This document shows, one piece after another, positions 6,053 to 55,323 of a stretch of 64,000 nt of DNA (within the stretch, counting starts at the first letter, position 1; each line of letters begins with the position of its first letter). The notes beneath the pieces are model-generated. The model was given only the letters and a program-made list of their open reading frames with translations, did not search any database and was not told the origin of the DNA. The DNA is from Hexactinellida sp. DTS-2022 (Eukaryota > Porifera > Hexactinellida), in the NCBI GenBank assembly GCA_028753945.1, contig JAPNXP010000003.1, positions 5,456,001-5,520,000 on the forward strand, given 5' to 3'. The translations under genes and the position numbers were made by a program.

Positions 6053-7003
6053 TTATAGCACACTAAGTAACCCAGCTAAAATAGCTAACACAAATACAAA
6101 CCCAACTATAATCCCAATAACAACTGCTATTATAATACAAATTATTATAAACTGTTTCCTTCTTGATTTCTTTCTATACACAACTGCTTTATGGGTCTCT
6201 ATTAATCCCCTATGGACATAATCCTTGGCTCTCTCGACATGCAAATCTATCCTATCGATAACTTCCCCTTGTTCCTCAATAAAGCGGGCGAGCTCATCAA
6301 ACATTTCTTGTAGCTCTCGCATGTTCTCCTCCAGTTGGAGAATATCTTTGTGTCTCTGTTCGATTTCGTCCAAAGCTTGTCTCGACTGTTGTAACTTCTG
6401 AGAACCGAATTCGTCAATGAATATATTCGGATTGTTAACATTCAGCATTTCGTCTATTTCGTTGTCGCTTTTTTCTTTCCCCACTATCTTTAGTTGTCTC
6501 TTTATGCGCTCCTTGCATTTAACCCGATACGTGGTCTGTTCATGTTGGTACTGATCCATTATTACATTGAATCTCTGCATAAGCGAGTTGTACTGCAGCT
6601 TATGCATTCGGTGATCAGCGTCATTTCCGTTCTCCTTATCCGCTTGCTGCTCCAGACGCCGCCCCATGCCCTGTATACTAGCCTGCACCTGTCGAGACAC
6701 AGTGGACACCTTTCCCATTACCTCGTCCAGCTCGCGCCGCTGGCTGTCAGGAGCCACGGCTTTCACTAAGAGCTCCCCATGCAGGTGCCCCACGTGACGT
6801 ACGTGGTTCTCTATCTCGTTAACCTTCTGGTTCAGAGACTCAATCTTTGTGAAGAATTCGTCTTCGAACACTGCATGTCGGTTGGCCGCTATCTCTATGT
6901 CCAGCGGCTCTATCCTGTACGCGCTGACTACGGGCAGTAGGGGGTCCTGGGGACCCGAGGCGGACAGGTGAGCCAGGCGGTCTCGCAGCGCAAGGGAAGC
7001 CAT
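6053..7003 (-). CDS. syntaxin (Qa-SNARE), plasma-membrane type
   Basis: t-SNARE of the syntaxin 1-4 class, driving vesicle fusion together with SNAP-25-like and VAMP partners. Numbered from the ATG at 7021: an Habc-type helical bundle at about 55-170, a linker, a SNARE motif at about 213-275 (LDEIEQRHKDILQLEENMRE) with the ionic zero-layer Gln at 251 (IEEQGEVIDRI), a basic juxtamembrane KKSRRK, and a C-terminal transmembrane anchor at 291-320. I prefer the ATG at 7003, giving MASLALRDRL, because syntaxins usually start M-x-DRL. The six extra residues from the ATG at 7021 overlap a possible splice acceptor (CTTATTAG), so a 5' exon could exist. Otherwise intronless. A MITE lies 33 bp upstream of the preferred ATG. 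High confidence for the family, moderate for the exact subtype and start. Confidence 0.92.
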   Translation of the reverse strand: MASLALRDRLAHLSASGPQDPLLPVVSAYRIEPLDIEIAANRHAVFEDEFFTKIESLNQKVNEIENHVRHVGHLHGELLVKAVAPDSQRRELDEVMGKVSTVSRQVQASIQGMGRRLEQQADKENGNDADHRMHKLQYNSLMQRFNVIMDQYQHEQTTYRVKCKERIKRQLKIVGKEKSDNEIDEMLNVNNPNIFIDEFGSQKLQQSRQALDEIEQRHKDILQLEENMRELQEMFDELARFIEEQGEVIDRIDLHVERAKDYVHRGLIETHKAVVYRKKSRRKQFIIICIIIAVVIGIIVGFVFVLAILAGLLSVL

Positions 7004-7035
7004 GCAGCAGCTAATAAGCAAATGTATATGTAGTA

Positions 7036-7213
7036 CAGTAGAACTCGGTAGTACGTACTTCGGTTAGTACTTCGGTTAGTAGGTACTAACTTGTAAAACA
7101 AAGTTTGTCAATATGTATGTAGTGTCAATTCGGTTATAATTCATTACGTACACTCGGATAATACGTACTAATTATTCTCTCCCAAGGGGATACGTACTAA
7201 CCGAGTTCTACTG
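7036..7213. mobile_element. pogo-like MITE, family L, at the syntaxin 5' end
   Basis: Starts CAGTAGAACTCGGTAGTACG and ends CGTACTAACCGAGTTCTACTG, between TA dinucleotides. Its end lies about 15 bp from the longest possible syntaxin ATG, so transcription or the 5' untranslated region probably uses MITE sequence. Confidence 0.6.
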
Positions 7214-44700: not shown

Positions 44701-47700
44701 TTAATATATTAACTAAGCGACCGCTTAAATAACCTTTATAATACAATAATTAACTAAATTAAGTAAATAATTGAATTAAGCTAACTAATACCACTAATTT
44801 TGGTTAAAACTTGAAATTTATAATTTATAATTTATCAAGTTATCATTCTATAAACTCAGTTGTTATACGAACGTAACTTAAGTGGATAAATTGAGTGATT
44901 TTCTTGCTAAATTGTTAATCAACCAAGCAATTTTACTTTGGTTAATTAATTTTTACATTATTAATTCTTTCACAAATAAGTTTATAAACTTTCCCCCATA
45001 AGCAGAGAATATTAACTTCAAAACTTCAAATCTTAGAAGAACGTTCAACATTTCACTAACTAGTCTGGTAATCTCCTTTTAGTTCTAATAAGTTGTCCCA
45101 ATCCTTAAAATCAAATAGATATTTGAAATCACAAATCCAATGAGAAGTGCATTCAAATATAATAAGTTGAGAATAAACAGTGTTCAGTAGAAGGTTTCTA
45201 CATAGAAAACTTTACAAGAATAGTAAGATTTTCTTTAAATTAATTAACTGAACATATAGAATTGAGAGCTTGTTTCTTGCTAAATCCTTTATCGGTTAAT
45301 TGCTTTTAAGAAATAACATGATAAGAGCTAAAGGTGAAATTCGTGGAGAGATGCTTGTGTATTTCCATTCAGGTTTCTTCGCGACGACTTTCCAGTCTAC
45401 TCTATAAGTGTTCTGGTATTCCATATGCGAAATCAATAATTCTAGTGACTAATAACGAGTTTATGCTTATCACTATTGTTTTGGATATTTTGTAATTGTT
45501 AATTTTAAGAACCTTTCAAATTCCGATCTTACTAAGCTTCCATTCCTGTGTAATGAAATTTTTTAGATTCTTTTCTGTATAAAAAAGTAATTCCAAAATC
45601 TTACATTTCCTATGCTTGTCTTTTCTAGGCTTGCAATCAGTAGGGATTTTCAGGAGGGGCCCTGGACAAGCGATTATGCAAGAAATAAAATCGAAAGCCA
45701 ACAGAGGTATTAAATTGTGCAACTTATAAAATAATCATAATTGTAAGCGTCTTTTACGCATAAGAAATATGCGTCAACTTGTAAGTATTATTTTGAAAAG
45801 TAATGGGATTATATTTTGCAAAATTGTAATTTACATGTTACGCAATGGAGACGTACTAATAAACCTTTGTTGTTAATTAATACACACAGCATAATGTCTA
45901 TATTATAGAATATACCAGTTATTACTTTTGAAACAGAAAAACTCCCTTTATTTTATTATATAATAATAACACATACTACGTATTGTGTGATTTTGTAACC
46001 AAATATAATGAGGAATGACCTTAAATTGATTACATAATAATTGCACTATCATCCACCCATTCACTTTAAATTACTGCCATCGGATACAAGATCAGAAGAA
46101 ATTGAATACTAATCGAATTCCTTTTAAACTAATCACAGGACTACCAATATATAGTGATTATTATTAACTCCCTTAATTATCAGGATTATGACCTAAAAGT
46201 TGAATTCTTGGTAAGGAAGGAAGTTTAAGTTGAAAGTGATATCAACCTAATATTCTACTAACACTCTAAATTATAATTAATTAATTAGTCAATTCATATG
46301 TTTATCAATTTCAGGTGAGCGAATTGACTTTAGAGAGATCGGAGATGTACATGTAGCTGCTGTTCTAATTAAAATGTTTATTCGGGAATTACCACAACCT
46401 TTGTTAACCGAAGAGTTATACGAGCCAATGAAAACTATTCACGGTAAGTCAAAATGCTCCAATAATATGTAACCATTGAATTAGGATAATTATTAATGAT
46501 TAAAAGTATGTATGTATTACAATAAATTAATTAAATGTCAATTCATTATAACATGACCATATGGTAAGTTCAATGAAACCAAAAACTCAGCTGAACCTAT
46601 GAATTATAACACTACTTTATTAATAATATTCTGTTTAATTAATAATAATGTCTGCTATGAGTGGCCAGTGATCAGAGGGGTTGTAAGGCGCATACAGCAT
46701 AGCTCGTACTTTCTCAGGCGTTCTGTAGAACCCTGCTACTCTGAAGCTATCGAGTGAATACCAAATGTAGTCTAAGGTTCTCCCATTGAGTTCCCCTGTC
46801 TCTTCAACCCATTGACAGGTGTAATTTGGCTCTGACACCTCCCCGTAAACACTCTTAATTCTGGGAATAACACATTGCTCTGATAAGAACTGGTAACTAA
46901 GTTCAGTTGGGTCAAAGTTTAAGTCCCCAGCTATAATAACCTTGCCGGTTTGAATTTTCTCAAGTTTGTTGATTAAATCTTTTGACTGTGCAAGTCTCCT
47001 TTGGTGCATATTTGGCATAGCTTTCAGGTGTGCGACTGCAACAGTTATATGATGGGAAGAAACCTTGTGTTCTAACTCTACTACCAATAGCACCTGATTA
47101 GAACTAATGTTCATCTCGTCAAGGAGCACAAATTCGTATTTCTTCACAAACCTTAAATGATACAAGCGATTTATCAATAGAATTTGAAATTCCCTATACA
47201 TGTGTAACAAATAAATGTGGTCATTTTAATTAACACAGCTATAATTGGAAGAATTTTCCAGGAAATTATGTCTCCAAATTTACTGTCCACTAAAGACTAT
47301 TATTCTTCAGGATTACAAACCATAACTTATACAAATGTATTTTCAACATCTGGTGTAAATAAGAAAATGTATTAGGAATTAATACATACGTAATTCCTAA
47401 TATTTTTGTAATTTTAAAGCACTGGCAAGGTTATTTTAGAAACATCAAAAATTAACCTTCGCTAAGCCTGATTAATATATTGAAAAGATGTTGGCAAATA
47501 TATATACATATAAGTCGGCCCAATAAATTTGCATTACCTAATTATGATTAATTTACTATATTAATGCACAAAATTAACATTTTGCTGCGAAATCTATTAA
47601 TTACTGCATCTAGAGCATGATTTGTTGTTATTCTATAATATGTCATGAACTTTCAGGATTTTTGTAACAGAAAGCTGTAAAAGAACAAATATAGTAAAAC

Positions 47701-50700
47701 AATTATTTGTTGACATATACATACGTCAATACAAATTGTACCTGAATATTTCTTCTTTATAAAACAATGCACATCCACAAGGTCCAATATTATCAGGTTT
47801 GTTTAAGCAGGGACTATTGACCTTTGGTAGGAAATATCCGGAGTAACCTTGTGTACTTAGAAATGGGTTAAAAAAGTCATAAAATAAATCTGCTTCTTGT
47901 AAACATATAATGTCCGGATTGTAAGCTCCGAATTCTCGTTTGAACAGTGGGACTCTCTCCTTGATTGGTTTCAGAATATCTTCATTCATTAATGCCTGTG
48001 CTAGCACATTCCATTGCATCAATCTGAACTTATTATTGCCTGCCTCTTTGTCACGGGTTATATACACTCTACAAGGAATCTCCTTTGTTGATTTCCCAAT
48101 CATCTCACGTGCGTATTCACCAGCCAGCACCTGGCAAGCTGTGGCTAAAATCTCCTCTCGAGAAGTGCCACTAAAGCGCTTATGAAAGTCGGCAGAAGGC
48201 ATATGAGGCATTTCCTTCTCAATAAACTTCCCAGCTGTTTCTGAGTAGCCCGTGCTCCTGAGATGGTAGCTGTCAGATGTCGCAGCCCTCGCTTGCTCCA
48301 CGAATTTGTTTGGAACGGAAATGCACTGCGAATAAGTTTCTAGTTTAATTAGGTTGTGTGGGTCATCCAATGCAATACAGCCGAAATCAAAATATTTGCC
48401 AGGTGTTACTTCTGTTATGAAATTCTCTATTGATACAGCCACCCTTGAGCTCATTGGGTGCGAATAGAATTGCTTTCTGAGATAATGGATTCGCCCCCAG
48501 GCCCCTTCCCTGCCTGCGTCGAATCCAATTGGTTGAGGCGCCACCTGATCAGGAACGGACACTCCTTCGCATAGAACATTCTCGAACACTCGAGAGAATC
48601 CGATCTTCACAGCGTTCAGCTTCAGGTCTTTGGTAGAAGTCACTACTAACTCCATTGAACAAGCTAAACCAGATAATAATGCCACCTTCATGCGAGATAA
48701 TTCTATATTTACGTAACACAGTCAAACTGTATGCTCTAGAGTATTCTCACCTCTTCTTACTAGTTTAAAGGAAATAAGAAAAGTATTTTCCTTTCCTTTA
48801 ACCAAGTAAAAAGAGGTGGAAATAGTGAGAAAGTAACACTATATTATTACCTATCTACAAATCCCTTTTGGTATATGGTATATTGGTCACACACAACTCG
48901 GTGACACAAGCTAATTATAGCTAGATTAGTATATTCAAAGATAAGCCAGTAGTAATGGTAATTGTCCGGGATAATTCCTCTTAAATATACTCACTTACAT
49001 CGAACTAAATGTAGAGGTCCCAAATACTTAGTTGAACCTAGTTAATCCTTATCTATAATGGTTAACTAGTGTACATGTAATCACACATACTTTTTTTGGC
49101 ATTGTACTTCTAACAACCCATTGAATATCACACATTTTCATATAAAATAAAACTCTTTTGGGCAATTTTATTTATTAAGTCATTGAACTATGTAGCGTGA
49201 CACATGTGAAATCTAATAAAACTGTGTAAGCCTGTTCATCTTAACCTAAAGCCTCTCAAATATATTTCAACTATTGTGTGCACTTAATGAGTTGTGCTTG
49301 TGTTTTCATATATTTGGAATAACATTGGTAGACAACAACATTGGAATTATTTGGAAACGATTTCTTAGTATCTTACCCATGTATAATTATTACAATTTAC
49401 ATGTCAGTTGAATTTCAGATTCGAAGATATAGAAATATATTCTCAGATTTAAACTTAATAGTTTCAACAATATTATGTAATATTATTACTCTTAGTTAAA
49501 TCATTGGCTAATGTTGTTTTACTAAAACACAAATATAATACAAAACTGGATTTGAATGATATACAATTGATAACTTTCCCTTTTGATTTGAGAATACCAG
49601 ATAATCTACGTTGTATAAACTAACTGAATGTATAATCGAATGTCAGAAATTACTACGTCTGTTTATTTGTTATCCTGTTGTTTACAAGTATTACCCAGGA
49701 TTACTCGTACTTTTTATTTGTCCTCGGCATTTTGCTTGGTTAGATAAATAAATAACTATTATAGCTATTTAGGATTGGAAGCAGCAGAGAAGATTGAAAG
49801 AGCAAAGGAGTTGATTGGGACATTACCATTGATAAACCTAGATCTCTTAAAATATGTACTGCGCATCCTTAGAAAGGTGAGCTCGACTACTTTTCTTACT
49901 CAAATAGTATTCATAATTATTCTTACAGAATCAAGGTTATTTTTGTTTCCTTTTACCGTTTTACGCATTGTAATATTCAATAAAAAGAGAGACAATTTTT
50001 AGTTGATGTTGTGATTACTTGATTCAATTAAGAGATTCACATACGTTGAGTCCCTACAGATTATTAAATTCAATTTGGTAATCAGAAAGCTGGGAATATA
50101 TTATGTTTACTTTCTTTAATAAACTGATTTATTCTAAGACAGATGTTCACTAGGTTAACTTGTTAGATTCCTTGCATTCAGATGGTTATATTGTAGTAAA
50201 ACTAACTTCAATCCTCCAAAATTGTTATGAATCTAAATAATTCCATTCATCCTACACAAGCGTGGTATCTCACATACTATCAAATCCACCTGAATATAAA
50301 TCTAATTATAAATATTATAACAGTATGGCATTGTAAGATCTGATTAATGGACTTCTTGTTTGGAAAGGAAATGAATAGGGAATCTTTGTTTTCGATTTCT
50401 ACAGATGTCCGTCATTGAAATTGCAAGAATACAATGTGTAGTTATCGAGGTTTCATTAGACTAATATTTCACTAAAAATTAGTGCACATTGCACTTACTT
50501 TCTTATTTAATTCTATAAAATATACTAATAATAGAAAATATTTTTTAAGATAATAATATTTACAACAATGATTGGCATAACTATTGAAATTTGTAGACTT
50601 CTTAAAATTAACAGGGAAACATATTGGGTTAATGTTGATTATTATAATACTAACGCAATGATTTAATTGTTAAGAATTGATTAATAGTTTAATACCCATG

Positions 50701-51452
50701 ATCATGATCGAATATTCAAAAAATTATAAAAAAGTAATTTATATTACATGGCCTGACTACTAATTATATTAGATCACAATAAATTACATGTTTTAATTCA
50801 GATCTTTTTATAAAATACAGCCTACGGTCGAGATTTTATTAAAGCATCATCCTAAGTCAAACAATAATAATAATAATAATTAAATTAATAAGAAAGGCAA
50901 TGCCCGATACAGTACAGTGAACTCTCGTTATAACGAAGTGCTTGGGACCTGTAAATCCCTTCGTTATATCCGGATATTCGTTAAAAGCGGATAATAATTA
51001 ATGCATTTAGTGCTCTGGGGGAAAATCTCCATTACTAACCTTATAAGCGGGTATTTTGTTATATCCGACTTCGTTATAACGGGAGTTTACTGTATACTAT
51101 TAAATTGGTACTGTAAATACAAGACCTATTAAGATTAATAAATGAAGAGTATTAGCTAATATATACTATTATGCATATGTTCTTAAAATAGTAATAACAT
51201 AAATCTGTATGCTGATTGGGACGATAAAAAAGTAGTTTATTTACATGGCCTTGTATCATTATTATTTAGGTGATAGCAAATGAGGAAACCAATAAAATGT
51301 CAGCCTCCAATCTCAGTATTGTTATTGGACCCAACATACTTTGGTCGTCACAAGACTCAGCTAGTTTAACAACATTAAATTACATCAACGCTTTCACCTA
51401 TATCCTCTTAACTCGCCTGGAAGATATATTTCCTGAAGAATCATCAATTTAA
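35731..51452 (+). CDS. ARHGAP1/p50RhoGAP-like protein with N-terminal SH3 domain, 13 exons
   Basis: Exons: 35731-36052, 37100-37207, 40317-40577, 41157-41244, 41519-41650, 42344-42430, 42492-42590, 42908-43042, 43486-43556, 45629-45706, 46315-46443, 49773-49876, 51270-51452. All phases agree and total 1797 nt (598 aa). SH3 domain at about 86-143, split between exons 1 and 2 ([37 protein letters not shown]). CRAL-TRIO/BCH lipid- and GTPase-binding domain at about 205-370 ([40 protein letters not shown]). RhoGAP domain at about 405-598 with the arginine finger R443 (GIFRRGPG), [13 protein letters not shown] and the conserved Asn region [13 protein letters not shown]. It should accelerate GTP hydrolysis on Cdc42/Rho-type GTPases at endosomal or plasma membranes. 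Vertebrate ARHGAP1 (439 aa) has no SH3 domain. Intron 11 carries an antisense gene. Several introns carry MITEs next to exons. Very confident of the exon chain; the exact 5' end is less certain. Confidence 0.92.
36070..36134. mobile_element. family C MITE, internally deleted (65 bp)
   Basis: Reads GACAGGTTCTTTTATAATG to ATAAGCAGACCTGACTA, i.e. the two ends of family C joined. It begins about 18 bp after RhoGAP exon 1. Confidence 0.5.
36194..36337. mobile_element. pogo-like MITE, family F
   Basis: Starts CAGTAGACTCTCGTTAATAT and ends TATTAATGAGACTCTACTG, TA-flanked. A right-end fragment of the same family follows at 36417-36458. RhoGAP intron 1. Confidence 0.6.
37237..37397. mobile_element. 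pogo-like MITE, subfamily A2
   Basis: Starts CAGTATAACTTCGTTAGTAC. Interior TACAATGGCTATTCAATGGG, right end ATTAACGAGTTCTA. It begins 30 bp after RhoGAP exon 2. Confidence 0.6.
38781..38948. mobile_element. pogo-like MITE, family A
   Basis: Left end TAGTAGAACCTCGTTACTAC, interior CCCCTTCAAAGCCTTTTCAA, right end ACTAACGAGGTTCTATTG then TA. RhoGAP intron 2. The rest of this 3.1-kb intron (37208-40316) shows no recognisable exon. Confidence 0.6.
39783..39932. mobile_element. pogo-like MITE, family E, long form
   Basis: Starts CAGTATACTCTGCTTAATGG and ends CTATTAAGCAAGTCAACTG, TA-flanked. RhoGAP intron 2. Confidence 0.6.
40028..40280. mobile_element. family F MITE with internal insertion, before RhoGAP exon 3
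   Basis: Interior ACATTTGTATAGACTAATGG and right end TATTAACGCGAGTCTACTG then TA. About 100 bp of unrelated sequence lies between the halves (about 40110-40225). It ends 36 bp before exon 3. Confidence 0.5.
40884..40954. repeat. imperfect palindrome in RhoGAP intron 3
   Basis: TTTCTTTTCTTCGTAACTTA pairs with TAAGTTACGAAAAAAGAAA around a short centre at about 40915-40920. A simple hairpin, possibly a MITE remnant. Confidence 0.5.
41264..41413. mobile_element. foldback (Mutator-like) MITE, copy 1
   Basis: 150 bp with long inverted arms (ACTTATCCACCGATCATCGG and its complement). Perfect 9-bp target duplication TTATAATTA at 41255-41263 and 41414-41422. Lies 19 bp past RhoGAP exon 4. Confidence 0.8.
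42121..42293. mobile_element. pogo-like MITE, family B, before RhoGAP exon 6
   Basis: Starts CAGTAAACTCTCGTCATAAC and ends GTTATAACGCGAGTTTACTA. It ends 50 bp before exon 6. Confidence 0.65.
42653..42789. mobile_element. pogo-like MITE, family A, shortened
   Basis: Starts CAGTAGAACCTCGTTAGTAC and ends TTCTAACGAGTGTCTACTG. Lacks part of the right half. RhoGAP intron 7. Confidence 0.6.
43557..45628 (+). other. RhoGAP intron 9 (2.1 kb), nothing else recognised
   Basis: AT-rich intron with no exon-like ORF and no repeat I can name. Confidence 0.5.
46635..48691 (-). CDS. YjjX/DUF84-type NTPase domain fused to nocturnin-like EEP phosphatase, 2 exons
   Basis: Exons 48691-47742 and 47151-46635 (minus strand), joined in phase 2, give 488 aa. 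Residues 12-165 resemble the non-canonical purine NTP phosphatase fold of YjjX/DUF84, also found in animal PRRC1: [76 protein letters not shown]. Residues 222-488 are an endonuclease/exonuclease/phosphatase domain closest to nocturnin ([31 protein letters not shown]). Likely active-site residues are N228, E266, H358 (HLKA), D393 and N395 (GDLNFDPTE), D444 (TLDYIWYS), and D477 and H478 (PSDHWPL). Human nocturnin removes the 2'-phosphate of NADP(H). Here a nucleotide-phosphatase role is likely but the substrate is unknown. Lies wholly inside intron 11 of the RhoGAP gene, antisense. The start could instead be the internal ATG at 48655 (MELVVTST). Confidence 0.88.
49877..51269 (+). other. RhoGAP intron 12 (1.4 kb) with one MITE
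   Basis: Contains a family B MITE (50915-51092) and a short AAT microsatellite at about 50864-50881. Nothing else recognised. Confidence 0.5.
50915..51092. mobile_element. pogo-like MITE, family B (well preserved)
   Basis: Starts CAGTGAACTCTCGTTATAAC and ends GTTATAACGGGAGTTTACTG, TA-flanked. Close to the family B consensus. Confidence 0.7.
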
Positions 51453-52597
51453 TTAAAGATAATTATTATAGCCAACCTTTAGCTGTATCTTATTGTTTTA
51501 TTTAATTTGGTTGATTTTTATGCTTATTTGGTGTGGCCGTATTCTGGTATAATTTTAATACTTGAGTATGTATATTATAGTTGTATACTAATTCAGTCTT
51601 TACGTACGTATGTTCATCAGATGTTTGATTAAATTATGTTTATGAATAATTATTTGTAAATTCAGATGGTTAAACACAAACTCTACAAAGGATGTTCTTT
51701 AGATTGGCTAAACTAGTCAAATAAACGAAAAATTATGCGTTTATATCTCACAGAGGTTATATAATTTTAAGGATTTTTATTACATATTAATGAAGAGTCT
51801 GAGAATTTTACTCAATACCAGGATTTATGTCTCGCTTCAATAGTATATTACGATCATAATTTCACATATTTTCCTAGACAATAACATTATTACTGATTCA
51901 GCTATATGATGTTTATATTGGAGTTTATGACCGCATAACTACTAGAAACTAATGAGTATTTCTAGATTAAATTATTATTAATATTGTCTGGGTATTAATC
52001 TCTACCGAGTATAACTATACAATGTCAATGTTGATCTAATCCTTCAATTAATCTTTTACGGTTCAACAGTAATTTGGCATATTCGTGTTCTATACAAACT
52101 GTCTAGCTTTGGGCTACAATTATAAACTATGAATTGATAATTAAATGGCAGCAAGAGTAATAATTCCATTCAGTTTCCTAGATTAGATAATTTCCTTTAA
52201 ATGCTACTCGTTTATTTCTAATTCCATTTTTTGTGTAACTTAGCTAAAATAGTTAATGGTATAGGTTTTTTCCAGTAATGGAAAAATATTCAAACAGTAG
52301 GCAGAAAAGACTTAAAAATACAGTCACTTACAATACGAATAAACTTAATTCAAGTTCTAAGCAATATTGAATTGAAAGGGATAGTAAAACTAATTATTAA
52401 TGAATTCACTTTGTTGTTTTTAACTAATTGTAATGGTACAATCCTTAAATATGCCTTGAGGTGGGAGTATCACAATCAGCGTAATATAACTTCTGATAAC
52501 TAGACACAGAAAAATATCTTCTACTTAGCAGTATTGCTTAGTGAAGTCAAGTTACATAGAATAATGAAAATGGCACAAATATGCCATCTATGTACTA
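51453..52597. other. intergenic region after the RhoGAP gene
   Basis: AT-rich, presumably including the RhoGAP 3' untranslated region. No gene or repeat recognised. Confidence 0.4.
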
Positions 52598-52740
52598 CAG
52601 TAGAACCTCGTTAGTACGAACACCAGGGACCGTCAAAATTCGTTCGCCTTATCCGGAATTCGTATTAACCAATATCATTTATATTTGAAAAGGCTTTGAA
52701 CTGAAATATTGTTCGCATTAATCGCTTTCGTACTAACGAT
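52598..52740. mobile_element. family A MITE, right terminal repeat damaged
   Basis: Starts CAGTAGAACCTCGTTAGTAC. Interior GTTCGCCTTATCCGGAATTC. Ends near TTCGTACTAACGATGAAG without the normal ACTG. Confidence 0.55.
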
Positions 52741-52922
52741 GAAGTATTAATGTCTTCTTATGAATACAGTTACTTACTACACATTGTTTCGTCCCGTTAG
52801 AACCTTTTTAATACGAATTTCGGAAATGCGAACGTATTCTTGGCCATCCCTATCTGAAAACAACAATGTAAGATTTCTGTTTTATGATGAAAAGTGGATT
52901 GTAAGTGTAAAGAAATCATATA

Positions 52923-53066
52923 CAGTAAACTTCGTTAGTATGATCACCAGGGGACTGTCAAAATTCGTTCGCCTTGTTTGGAATTCGTATTAACCAATAT
53001 GTATAATGTGTTTTGAAAAGGCTTGAAGGGGACTGAAATAGTGTTCGTATTATTAACTTTCTACTG
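52923..53066. mobile_element. pogo-like MITE, family A
   Basis: Starts CAGTAAACTTCGTTAGTATG and ends TATTATTAACTTTCTACTG, TA-flanked, shortened at the right. Confidence 0.6.
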
Positions 53067-53106
53067 TATTTATTTGGTACGTACTATATGTAATGTAATA
53101 AAATAG

Positions 53107-53255
53107 GAATTTACTTATCCACCGATCATCGGCGTTTGTATTAAATAACCTGGGTAGTTTCTACCGATGGTGTTTTTTATAAACATAAAAAACAATCGTA
53201 GAAAGTAGCGAGGTTTTTTACTACAAACGCCGATGATCGGTGGATAAGTAAACTC
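53107..53255. mobile_element. foldback (Mutator-like) MITE, copy 2
   Basis: 149 bp, the same foldback arms as at 41264. Perfect 9-bp target duplication ATAAAATAG at 53098-53106 and 53256-53264. Confidence 0.8.
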
Positions 53256-53584
53256 ATAAAATAGCATTATAACTCTTGATGAATTAAATACTAACCCGAT
53301 GAATCAAACTTTCTTAAAATGTCAATTGATTTATGTTTTGTTGCAATGTGGATTACTCGCGTGAGATTATAACCTTATACCTAGTCATGCTATCTACCCG
53401 AGTACCAATCTCATGGTAATTACCTGAATTCGTCAAGGCTTGTATAAGGGAATGAACTACTGGTAAGTTAACATGAATTGGTATAGTTTCAAGGTAAATC
53501 CAAAAGGTATTAGTTCCATTAACTCAAAACTGAAAGTATAGTCTAGTACTGTTCTATACTGTCGACAGTAAGAGCTATTTAGTA

Positions 53585-53590
53585 TATAAA
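53585..53590 (+). promoter_or_regulatory. candidate TATA box of the TKL kinase gene
   Basis: TATAAA in GTATATAAAGACTG, 75 bp upstream of the kinase ATG, leaving room for a leader of roughly 50 bases. AT-rich context lowers confidence. Confidence 0.35.
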
Positions 53591-53664
53591 GACTGAAAAG
53601 CAACTAGTATTTAGAATAAGATTTATAACTCTACAACAAATTAAATATATTAATAATTCACAAA

Positions 53665-55323
53665 ATGGTGCAATTAAAGGAAAATATTAATAACTACCTT
53701 CAAGATGTGAACATAATAACTGCCCCAGCTTATGAGCTTGGAAGAGGAACATTTGGCGTTGTGTACAAAGCAAAATGGTTAGGTGCAAACGTAGCCGTTA
53801 AGAATCTACACACGCATTTATTTTCACAACAACCTGAACGAGTTTGGAAAAAAATTGTTCGTGATTTCGAGAATGAATACAAATTCCTTGCCAACCTCCG
53901 ACATCCGAATATTGTGCAATATTTCGGTCTCACGAAACAGAATGAAGCGATTGGAATTGTCACTGAGCTCGCTTGGGGAAGTCTCTTAAAGAGAAATTAC
54001 ATGAAACCTCGACTGACTCTCAGACACATTGTCGATTGCGCTATTCAGTTGGGAGCTGGTCTCAGATACCTCCACGAACAGAATCCGCCGATTATTCACA
54101 GAGATTTCGCGTCGAAAAACATCCTTCTAGGATTCGACGGTCAGGCAAAAATCGCTGATTTGGGCGTAGCAACTCTGGTCACTCCTCACACCACACACAT
54201 GACACAGTCCCCTGGCACCGAACCGTACATCGCCCCAGAGTGCAGAATACACAAAACCTACAGCGAAAAAATCGACATTTTCTCATACGCGGTTACCATT
54301 TTAGAACTCTGCACAAACCAAGTCCCCAAACCGAAGAACATGTTCCACTGCTCCGAGGATCCCAACACGGGAATCCGGAGCATCACGCAAGTGCCAGAAA
54401 TAACCCGGAGGGAAAGCGACCTCAGGATAATCGGTTCTTCTCACTGTCTCTACAGCATAATATTGGAAGGAATAAAAGATGACCCAGATTCCCGACCCTC
54501 TGCACACCAAATGCTCACTCTATTAAACAAAATAAAGTCTATCCCTGATTACACTTCTTGTCCGAAAGAAGGAATACTCGACGGGATCCATTTGAACCGC
54601 GAGAAGAATCTCCAGCAACAGATCCACAACAAAGAGGTGGAAGTGGTACACATGATGCAGCAGCTCGAACAAGCGAAAAAAGAATTAGAAAATTTAAAGA
54701 CTACTACATACGTTGTGAAAGATACAACTGGTCCTTATAGGAATGTGCAACGTCCCAGTTTGCCTTCGGTTGATCACAACAGAATGCATCAACAGCGAAC
54801 AGATTTAACGCAACCGATAGAATCTACATCTCCAAATGAAAGAAAATTACAAAGACCAAAAGACTTGCAAATACAGAAAAATAATAATAACCTTGTGATC
54901 CGAGGGAAAAAGTTAAACGAAATTTCCAACAAAGATCCTTACCCTAAGGCATCTCCCACTCGCATGGATATTTCAAAACAAATTGCAAGCACCAATCAAT
55001 TGGAAATACAAAGGCAACAACAAATACAAAAAATGGCACAACTACAACAAGCGCAACATTTGTTAAAGCCACAAACACCTCTACTAAGCATTCAATCTAT
55101 AAACCAACAACTGAATCCAATTTTTCCAGCGCTTGAACAGAGAATACCCGTCTACTACATTCCAAGCAGACAATTAACAAACGAAACCATGGATATCAAC
55201 AAAATGTATTTAGTTCCAAATCCATACGACATGATCCCCAGGGGTCCGCATCCAAATATAGAAGTTTATCCAGTGACTGAAAACACAACAGCCAACTCTT
55301 CGTCATTCACTCGGAGTTGTTAG
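53665..55323 (+). CDS. TKL-type protein kinase with coiled-coil, Gln-rich tail
   Basis: Single-exon gene of 552 aa. Kinase domain at about 22-290: glycine loop GRGTFG (26-31), VAVK with Lys46, alpha-C Glu near 71, HRDFASKN catalytic loop (145-152), DLG instead of DFG (165-167), GTEPYIAPE ending with APE (190-192), and DPDSRPSAHQML. The loop HRDFASKN and overall pattern place it among tyrosine-kinase-like (TKL/RIPK-like) or invertebrate orphan kinases rather than true receptor tyrosine kinases. Residues about 311-345 form a coiled coil (LQQQIHNKEVEVVHMMQQL), followed by a low-complexity Gln/Pro-rich tail. No signal peptide or membrane segment, so cytosolic. The Lys, HRD and metal Asp are all present, so it is probably active. 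Intronless state suggests either a retrocopy-derived family or normal structure for this clade. Confidence 0.88.
   Translation: MVQLKENINNYLQDVNIITAPAYELGRGTFGVVYKAKWLGANVAVKNLHTHLFSQQPERVWKKIVRDFENEYKFLANLRHPNIVQYFGLTKQNEAIGIVTELAWGSLLKRNYMKPRLTLRHIVDCAIQLGAGLRYLHEQNPPIIHRDFASKNILLGFDGQAKIADLGVATLVTPHTTHMTQSPGTEPYIAPECRIHKTYSEKIDIFSYAVTILELCTNQVPKPKNMFHCSEDPNTGIRSITQVPEITRRESDLRIIGSSHCLYSIILEGIKDDPDSRPSAHQMLTLLNKIKSIPDYTSCPKEGILDGIHLNREKNLQQQIHNKEVEVVHMMQQLEQAKKELENLKTTTYVVKDTTGPYRNVQRPSLPSVDHNRMHQQRTDLTQPIESTSPNERKLQRPKDLQIQKNNNNLVIRGKKLNEISNKDPYPKASPTRMDISKQIASTNQLEIQRQQQIQKMAQLQQAQHLLKPQTPLLSIQSINQQLNPIFPALEQRIPVYYIPSRQLTNETMDINKMYLVPNPYDMIPRGPHPNIEVYPVTENTTANSSSFTRSC

Follow-up and report, generated by a model that had tools for sequence, protein, structure and literature searches.

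A single reading frame in a hexactinellid sponge joins a DUF84-fold domain, probably of the PRRC1 type, to a nocturnin-type EEP domain

We describe a gene of the sponge Hexactinellida sp. DTS-2022 in which a domain with the DUF84 fold is joined, in one continuous reading frame, to a nocturnin-type EEP domain. The gene lies on the minus strand of a 64,000-nucleotide stretch of contig JAPNXP010000003.1 (positions 5,456,001 to 5,520,000; assembly GCA_028753945.1), hereafter the window, which has a GC content of 33% and to which the coordinates refer (Table 1). The coding frame of the first exon contains no stop, whereas the two alternative frames have 24 and 21; the exon offers two in-frame methionines, residue 1 at 48691 and residue 13 at 48655, and its EEP portion comprises the first strands of that domain with the MQWN and LQE motifs, including the metal-site glutamate. 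Because the DUF84 half, the linker and these first EEP strands share both exon and frame, no splice prediction is needed to establish the fusion, which we regard as secure; it is known from the DNA sequence of one locus in one genome. The initial annotation had read the locus as a YjjX/DUF84-type nucleotide phosphatase domain fused to a nocturnin-like EEP domain, and its coordinates, strand and length of 488 residues are correct, as is its placement of both halves in one frame of a 950-bp exon. The Pfam check that it had proposed finds both domains in the 488-residue product above their cut-offs: residues 19-136 match NTPase_I-T (DUF84) at 48.0 bits (cut-off 25), and residues 225-478 match Exo_endo_phos at 65.5 bits (cut-off 24.5).

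Table 1. Features of the fusion gene and of the intron that encloses it, in window coordinates.
Feature	Position	Strand	Details
Fusion gene	46635..48691	minus	2 exons, 488 residues
Exon 1	47742..48691	minus	950 bp; whole DUF84 domain (probably PRRC1-type), linker and start of EEP domain in one frame
DUF84 domain, probably PRRC1-type	48101..48655	minus	residues 13-197 of 488
Inter-domain linker	48029..48100	minus	24 residues (198-221)
Intron, preferred model	47152..47741	minus	590 bp, GT-AG
Intron with alternative acceptor	47194-47741	minus	
Exon 2	46635..47151	minus	completes the nocturnin-type EEP domain (motifs GDLN, LDYIWYS, SDH); the stop codon TAA lies at the low end
Host intron of RhoGAP gene	46444..49771	plus	encloses whole fusion gene; upper limit approximate

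The intron begins with GTACAA at 47741 and has two possible AG acceptors, from which exon 2 would start at 47151 (488 residues) or at 47193 (502 residues). The former drops a 14-residue insertion present in the longer product and improves the match to human nocturnin (alignment score 420 versus 403; E-value 2e-46 versus 1.1e-41), and for these reasons the 488-residue model was adopted; the fusion is identical under either acceptor. With the exon limits of the 502-residue model, the GC content is 43% and 40% in the exons and 27% in the intron. A full-length AlphaFold model of the 502-residue product, computed without an alignment, reached a mean predicted local distance difference test score (pLDDT) of 33 and was discarded as useless.

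YjjX and VC0702 are inosine-xanthosine triphosphatases of the DUF84 family (PF01931), and the N-terminal domain of the fusion is unlike them both in its profile score and in its motifs. It scores 38.3 bits against TIGR00258, the NCBI equivalog profile for these ITPases/XTPases, and misses the cut-off of 117.1 bits by 79 bits, whereas E. coli YjjX scores 242.7 bits in the same run. Conservation was assessed in 50 bacterial DUF84 sequences (37 and 13, with L052 being the same gene as L040), which reduce to 24 at less than 85% identity, and inferences were drawn only up to about residue 94, past which the alignment is unreliable. The residues N10, P11, E50 and T51, conserved in 22 or 23 of the 24 non-redundant sequences, are here K, D, A and G; that is, the N and P of the NPxK motif and the ET of the EETxxGA motif are replaced, while the family residues K13, Q44, P45, G54, A55 and R58 are retained. 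The residues of the two motifs have a catalytic role in the family, and their conservation is as observed in the alignment columns. Judged from these replacements, the N-terminal domain may no longer cleave inosine or xanthosine triphosphates.

PRRC1, the animal proline-rich coiled-coil protein 1, has a DUF84-like C-terminal domain, and it is this domain that the N-terminal half of the fusion probably resembles over its whole length. Aligned with a provisional human PRRC1 sequence, the domain has 72 of 183 residues identical (39%) with a single two-residue gap (E-value 2.6e-40); E. coli YjjX in the same run has 18 of 60 identical (E-value 1.4). The PRRC1 sequence itself matches PF01931, in which it extends to position 110 of 162 and the sponge domain to position 112, compared with 161 for YjjX, and at the positions of N10, P11, E50 and T51 it carries K, E, A and G. 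Because this PRRC1 sequence shares both the truncated span and the departures at these four positions, the replacements look like traits of the PRRC1 family and not like gene decay. We consider it very probable that the N-terminal half is of the type of the PRRC1 C-terminal domain and not of the YjjX type, a judgement that rests partly on the provisional sequence. Unlike the human PRRC1 sequence used here, which ends with this domain, the fusion continues into a nocturnin domain. We know of no assay of PRRC1 on nucleotides.

The C-terminal half resembles nocturnin (human NOCT, fly Curled), an NADP(H) 2'-phosphatase. The closest solved structure is human nocturnin (2e-46; 109 of 258 aligned residues identical), followed by the molecule 4b8c_D at 2.3e-10, with CNOT6 at 4e-8 and ANGEL2 at 5e-4, and by these matches nocturnin is a closer relative of the EEP half than CCR4, CNOT6, PDE12 or ANGEL is. 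The EEP domain and its catalytic center are common to the fusion and to ANGEL- and CCR4-type proteins, which nevertheless match it far more weakly. The six EEP catalytic residues checked, N149, N326, D377, H414 and the pair E195 and D324 named by Estrella et al. (2019; PMC6542800), are all kept; K219, K288, A289 and the HLKA stretch are kept as well. The pocket for the base is altered. In human nocturnin the adenine of NADPH is sandwiched by R290 and R367, and stable contacts come from the sugar-phosphate backbone (Estrella et al., 2019; PMC6542800). Here R290 has become methionine and R367 glutamate; by eye, two alignments are possible around R367, and neither supplies an arginine. The 2018 structure paper, in the excerpts available (PMC6214945), lists eight nocturnin-specific residues, of which P223, L225 and N230 are kept and R290, R367, K365, P220 and D160 replaced, the last only probably, as that call adjoins an alignment gap. 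A further difference is that the fusion has a folded domain at its N-terminus, as against the mitochondrial signal described in part of PMC6542800. NADP(H) is a candidate substrate, perhaps held through the backbone contacts, and is not to be assumed.

Searches of the whole genome (112.4 Mb) were run exon by exon, so that a strongly split copy could escape them. The PF01931 profile has one match in the genome, the fusion gene, and the fusion protein finds only its own two exons at E-values up to 10. Human nocturnin likewise has its best matches in these two exons (5e-21 and 5e-17), with the locus L006 on contig C4 close behind at 2e-19. L006 is a separate gene for an ANGEL protein, being closer to ANGEL2 (8e-69) than to nocturnin (2e-20) and having HLLF where nocturnin has HLKA. 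From these matches the species seems to carry the PRRC1-type domain and nocturnin only in fused form.

We hold with moderate confidence that the gene most likely fuses PRRC1 to nocturnin, so that a module without catalytic activity would position a phosphatase of the nocturnin type. In the excerpts available of PMC8536394 and PMC12519218, PRRC1 is recruited to exit sites of the endoplasmic reticulum, where the inner layer of the COPII coat is a binding partner, and it works together with AP-4; these excerpts assign it a role in vesicle traffic and give no enzyme activity, and in 2021 its cellular function was called unknown (PMC8536394). By analogy with that work on vesicle coats, the PRRC1-type domain would serve as a docking or dimer-forming module, and the nocturnin half, to judge from its residues, would be a phosphatase or phosphodiesterase that depends on metal, its catalytic center intact and its base pocket altered. 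The module would place this enzyme at secretory-pathway membranes, a targeting step that we put forward tentatively, and the substrate may be NADP(H), recognized through its sugar-phosphate backbone, or another 2'-phosphate or dinucleotide. The location of nocturnin, which has mitochondrial or cytoplasmic forms, is thought to be important for its work in the parts available of PMC6542800 and PMC11273496. A simpler reading takes the DUF84 fold as a dimer-forming or folding module.

Several points weigh against a PRRC1-nocturnin fusion that acts in this way. The sequence used for comparison, which we take to be that of human PRRC1, is provisional and makes the resemblance a lead only. The fusion is also unlike PRRC1 in that no proline-rich part was found upstream: among 52 minus-strand stretches of at least 25 residues in 48692-53628 the highest proline content was 11%, and the juxta-domain stretch of the provisional PRRC1 sequence gave nothing above shuffled controls in these 4.9 kb, a search that covers stretches of at least 25 residues within this interval and leaves room for shorter or more distant exons. 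Because the proline-rich part was not found, the trafficking role may not carry over; in the excerpts of PMC8536394 it is this region of PRRC1 that is suggested to bind Sec23. The replacement of both adenine-clamping arginines makes NADP(H) uncertain as a substrate.

Among the alternatives, the one that survives best, though we think it unlikely, is that the EEP half no longer fills the role of a nocturnin and has RNA or some other phosphodiester as its substrate, while the N-terminal half does the recruiting. The retention of A289, which we take to be the residue that deadenylases replace by tryptophan (Estrella et al. give no number for it), argues against such a shift, as does that of P223, L225 and N230. 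Five of the eight nocturnin-specific residues of PMC6214945 are replaced, including R290, a lid thought to exclude RNA, and this loss would favor an RNA substrate; in the excerpts of the same paper, however, the R290A change in human nocturnin did not unlock poly-A cleavage.

Less likely still is a bifunctional clean-up enzyme, as the initial annotation had suggested, in which the N-terminal half would hydrolyze ITP/XTP-like nucleotides and the C-terminal half would take the 2'-phosphate off NADP(H). The nocturnin-like nature of the EEP half is borne out, both by the match of 2e-46 to the human structure and by the gene being the best nocturnin match in the genome. The DUF84 fold stands too, on the Pfam match and on the N-domain structure prediction that the annotation had also proposed, which gave a DUF84, YjjX-like fold by fold match; the model was built from 14 bacterial YjjX-type relatives, so that a YjjX-like fold is partly built in, and has pLDDT below 50 at residues 127-161. 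What does not stand is the assignment to YjjX-type ITP/XTP phosphatases: K13, Q44, P45, G54, A55 and R58 are kept and would suit one, but the equivalog is missed by 79 bits (38.3 against 117.1) and N10, P11, E50 and T51 are replaced. For NADP(H), the intact catalytic residues speak in favor of the proposed substrate, and the loss of R290 (now M) and of R367 (now E) weakens it. That the locus yields two products, an internal promoter or start giving nocturnin alone (for which the in-frame methionine at residue 197, right before the linker, could serve) and the fusion being a minor transcript or an illusion of the gene model, is very unlikely, as the reading frame passes through the linker uninterrupted by a stop, the exon of the PRRC1-type domain also holds the first EEP strands, and the exon-by-exon genome search gave no other DUF84 match and no better nocturnin match.

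The two domains are each known, and what is unusual is their combination together with the altered nocturnin pocket; the literature searches made yielded no paper pairing nocturnin with PRRC1 and no description of the DUF84/PRRC1-nocturnin domain pair. The nearest papers were one in which NTPase_I-T/DUF84 appears solely in a table of coral domains and one concerned with CCR4-CAF1. A PRRC1-nocturnin fusion predicts that PRRC1 and nocturnin interact or share a compartment, which can be tested in ordinary cell lines, and a nocturnin in which the NADPH adenine clamp is replaced provides a natural test of what the clamp is for. In a broader, Rosetta-stone reading, PRRC1 and nocturnin would be partners in animals generally, and the DUF84-derived fold would dock, or sense a nucleotide or dinucleotide, thereby recruiting or gating the phosphatase at endoplasmic reticulum exit sites and the Golgi. 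We regard this as decidedly improbable; if true, it would tie NADP(H) levels to vesicle traffic.

A RhoGAP gene encoded on the plus strand holds the fusion gene, which runs the other way, inside one of its introns. Positions 48-84 of the RhoGAP profile match at 46281-46469 on the plus strand (exon about 46315-46443), and positions 89-124 match at 49748-49999 on the same strand (exon from about 49772; 21.8 bits, against a whole-domain cut-off of 24.5). Because the second match continues the first in profile order, the two are taken to belong to the same gene. The host intron extends about 1.1 kb upstream of the fusion ATG, a space that could hardly accommodate a proline-rich initial portion.

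Relatives of the gene in viral contigs, phages and plasmids were also sought. A search of viral contigs that reaches close relatives only gave three pattern matches to the fusion, none of them confirmed; 27 pattern matches to DUF84 relatives in viral contigs were likewise not confirmed, and the N-terminal domain had no match in phages and plasmids at E-values up to 1. At the DNA level, 40 of 75 candidates were scored, and except for a short intronic repeat the fusion gene had no match among them other than itself. This dispersed repeat of about 100 bp (47403-47514) has at least 39 further matches in the genome at 75-85% identity. Many of the genome-wide EEP matches lie in scattered open frames of about 1,700 residues, which look like young retrotransposon copies of the long interspersed nuclear element (LINE) type. 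The ANGEL gene L006 is a single-exon gene at 1021-2496 of its locus on contig C4, with a proline-rich N-terminus. Elsewhere in the window, a single-exon frame of 564 residues at 53629-55323 on the plus strand encodes, by eye, a protein kinase with a Q-rich tail after it, and a single-exon gene at 6053-7063 on the minus strand was judged by eye to encode a syntaxin-like SNARE. In keeping with a sponge, which the small size and AT-richness of the genome would also fit, the exon-by-exon search of the genome gave at least two nuclear-receptor and at least 16 homeodomain matches.

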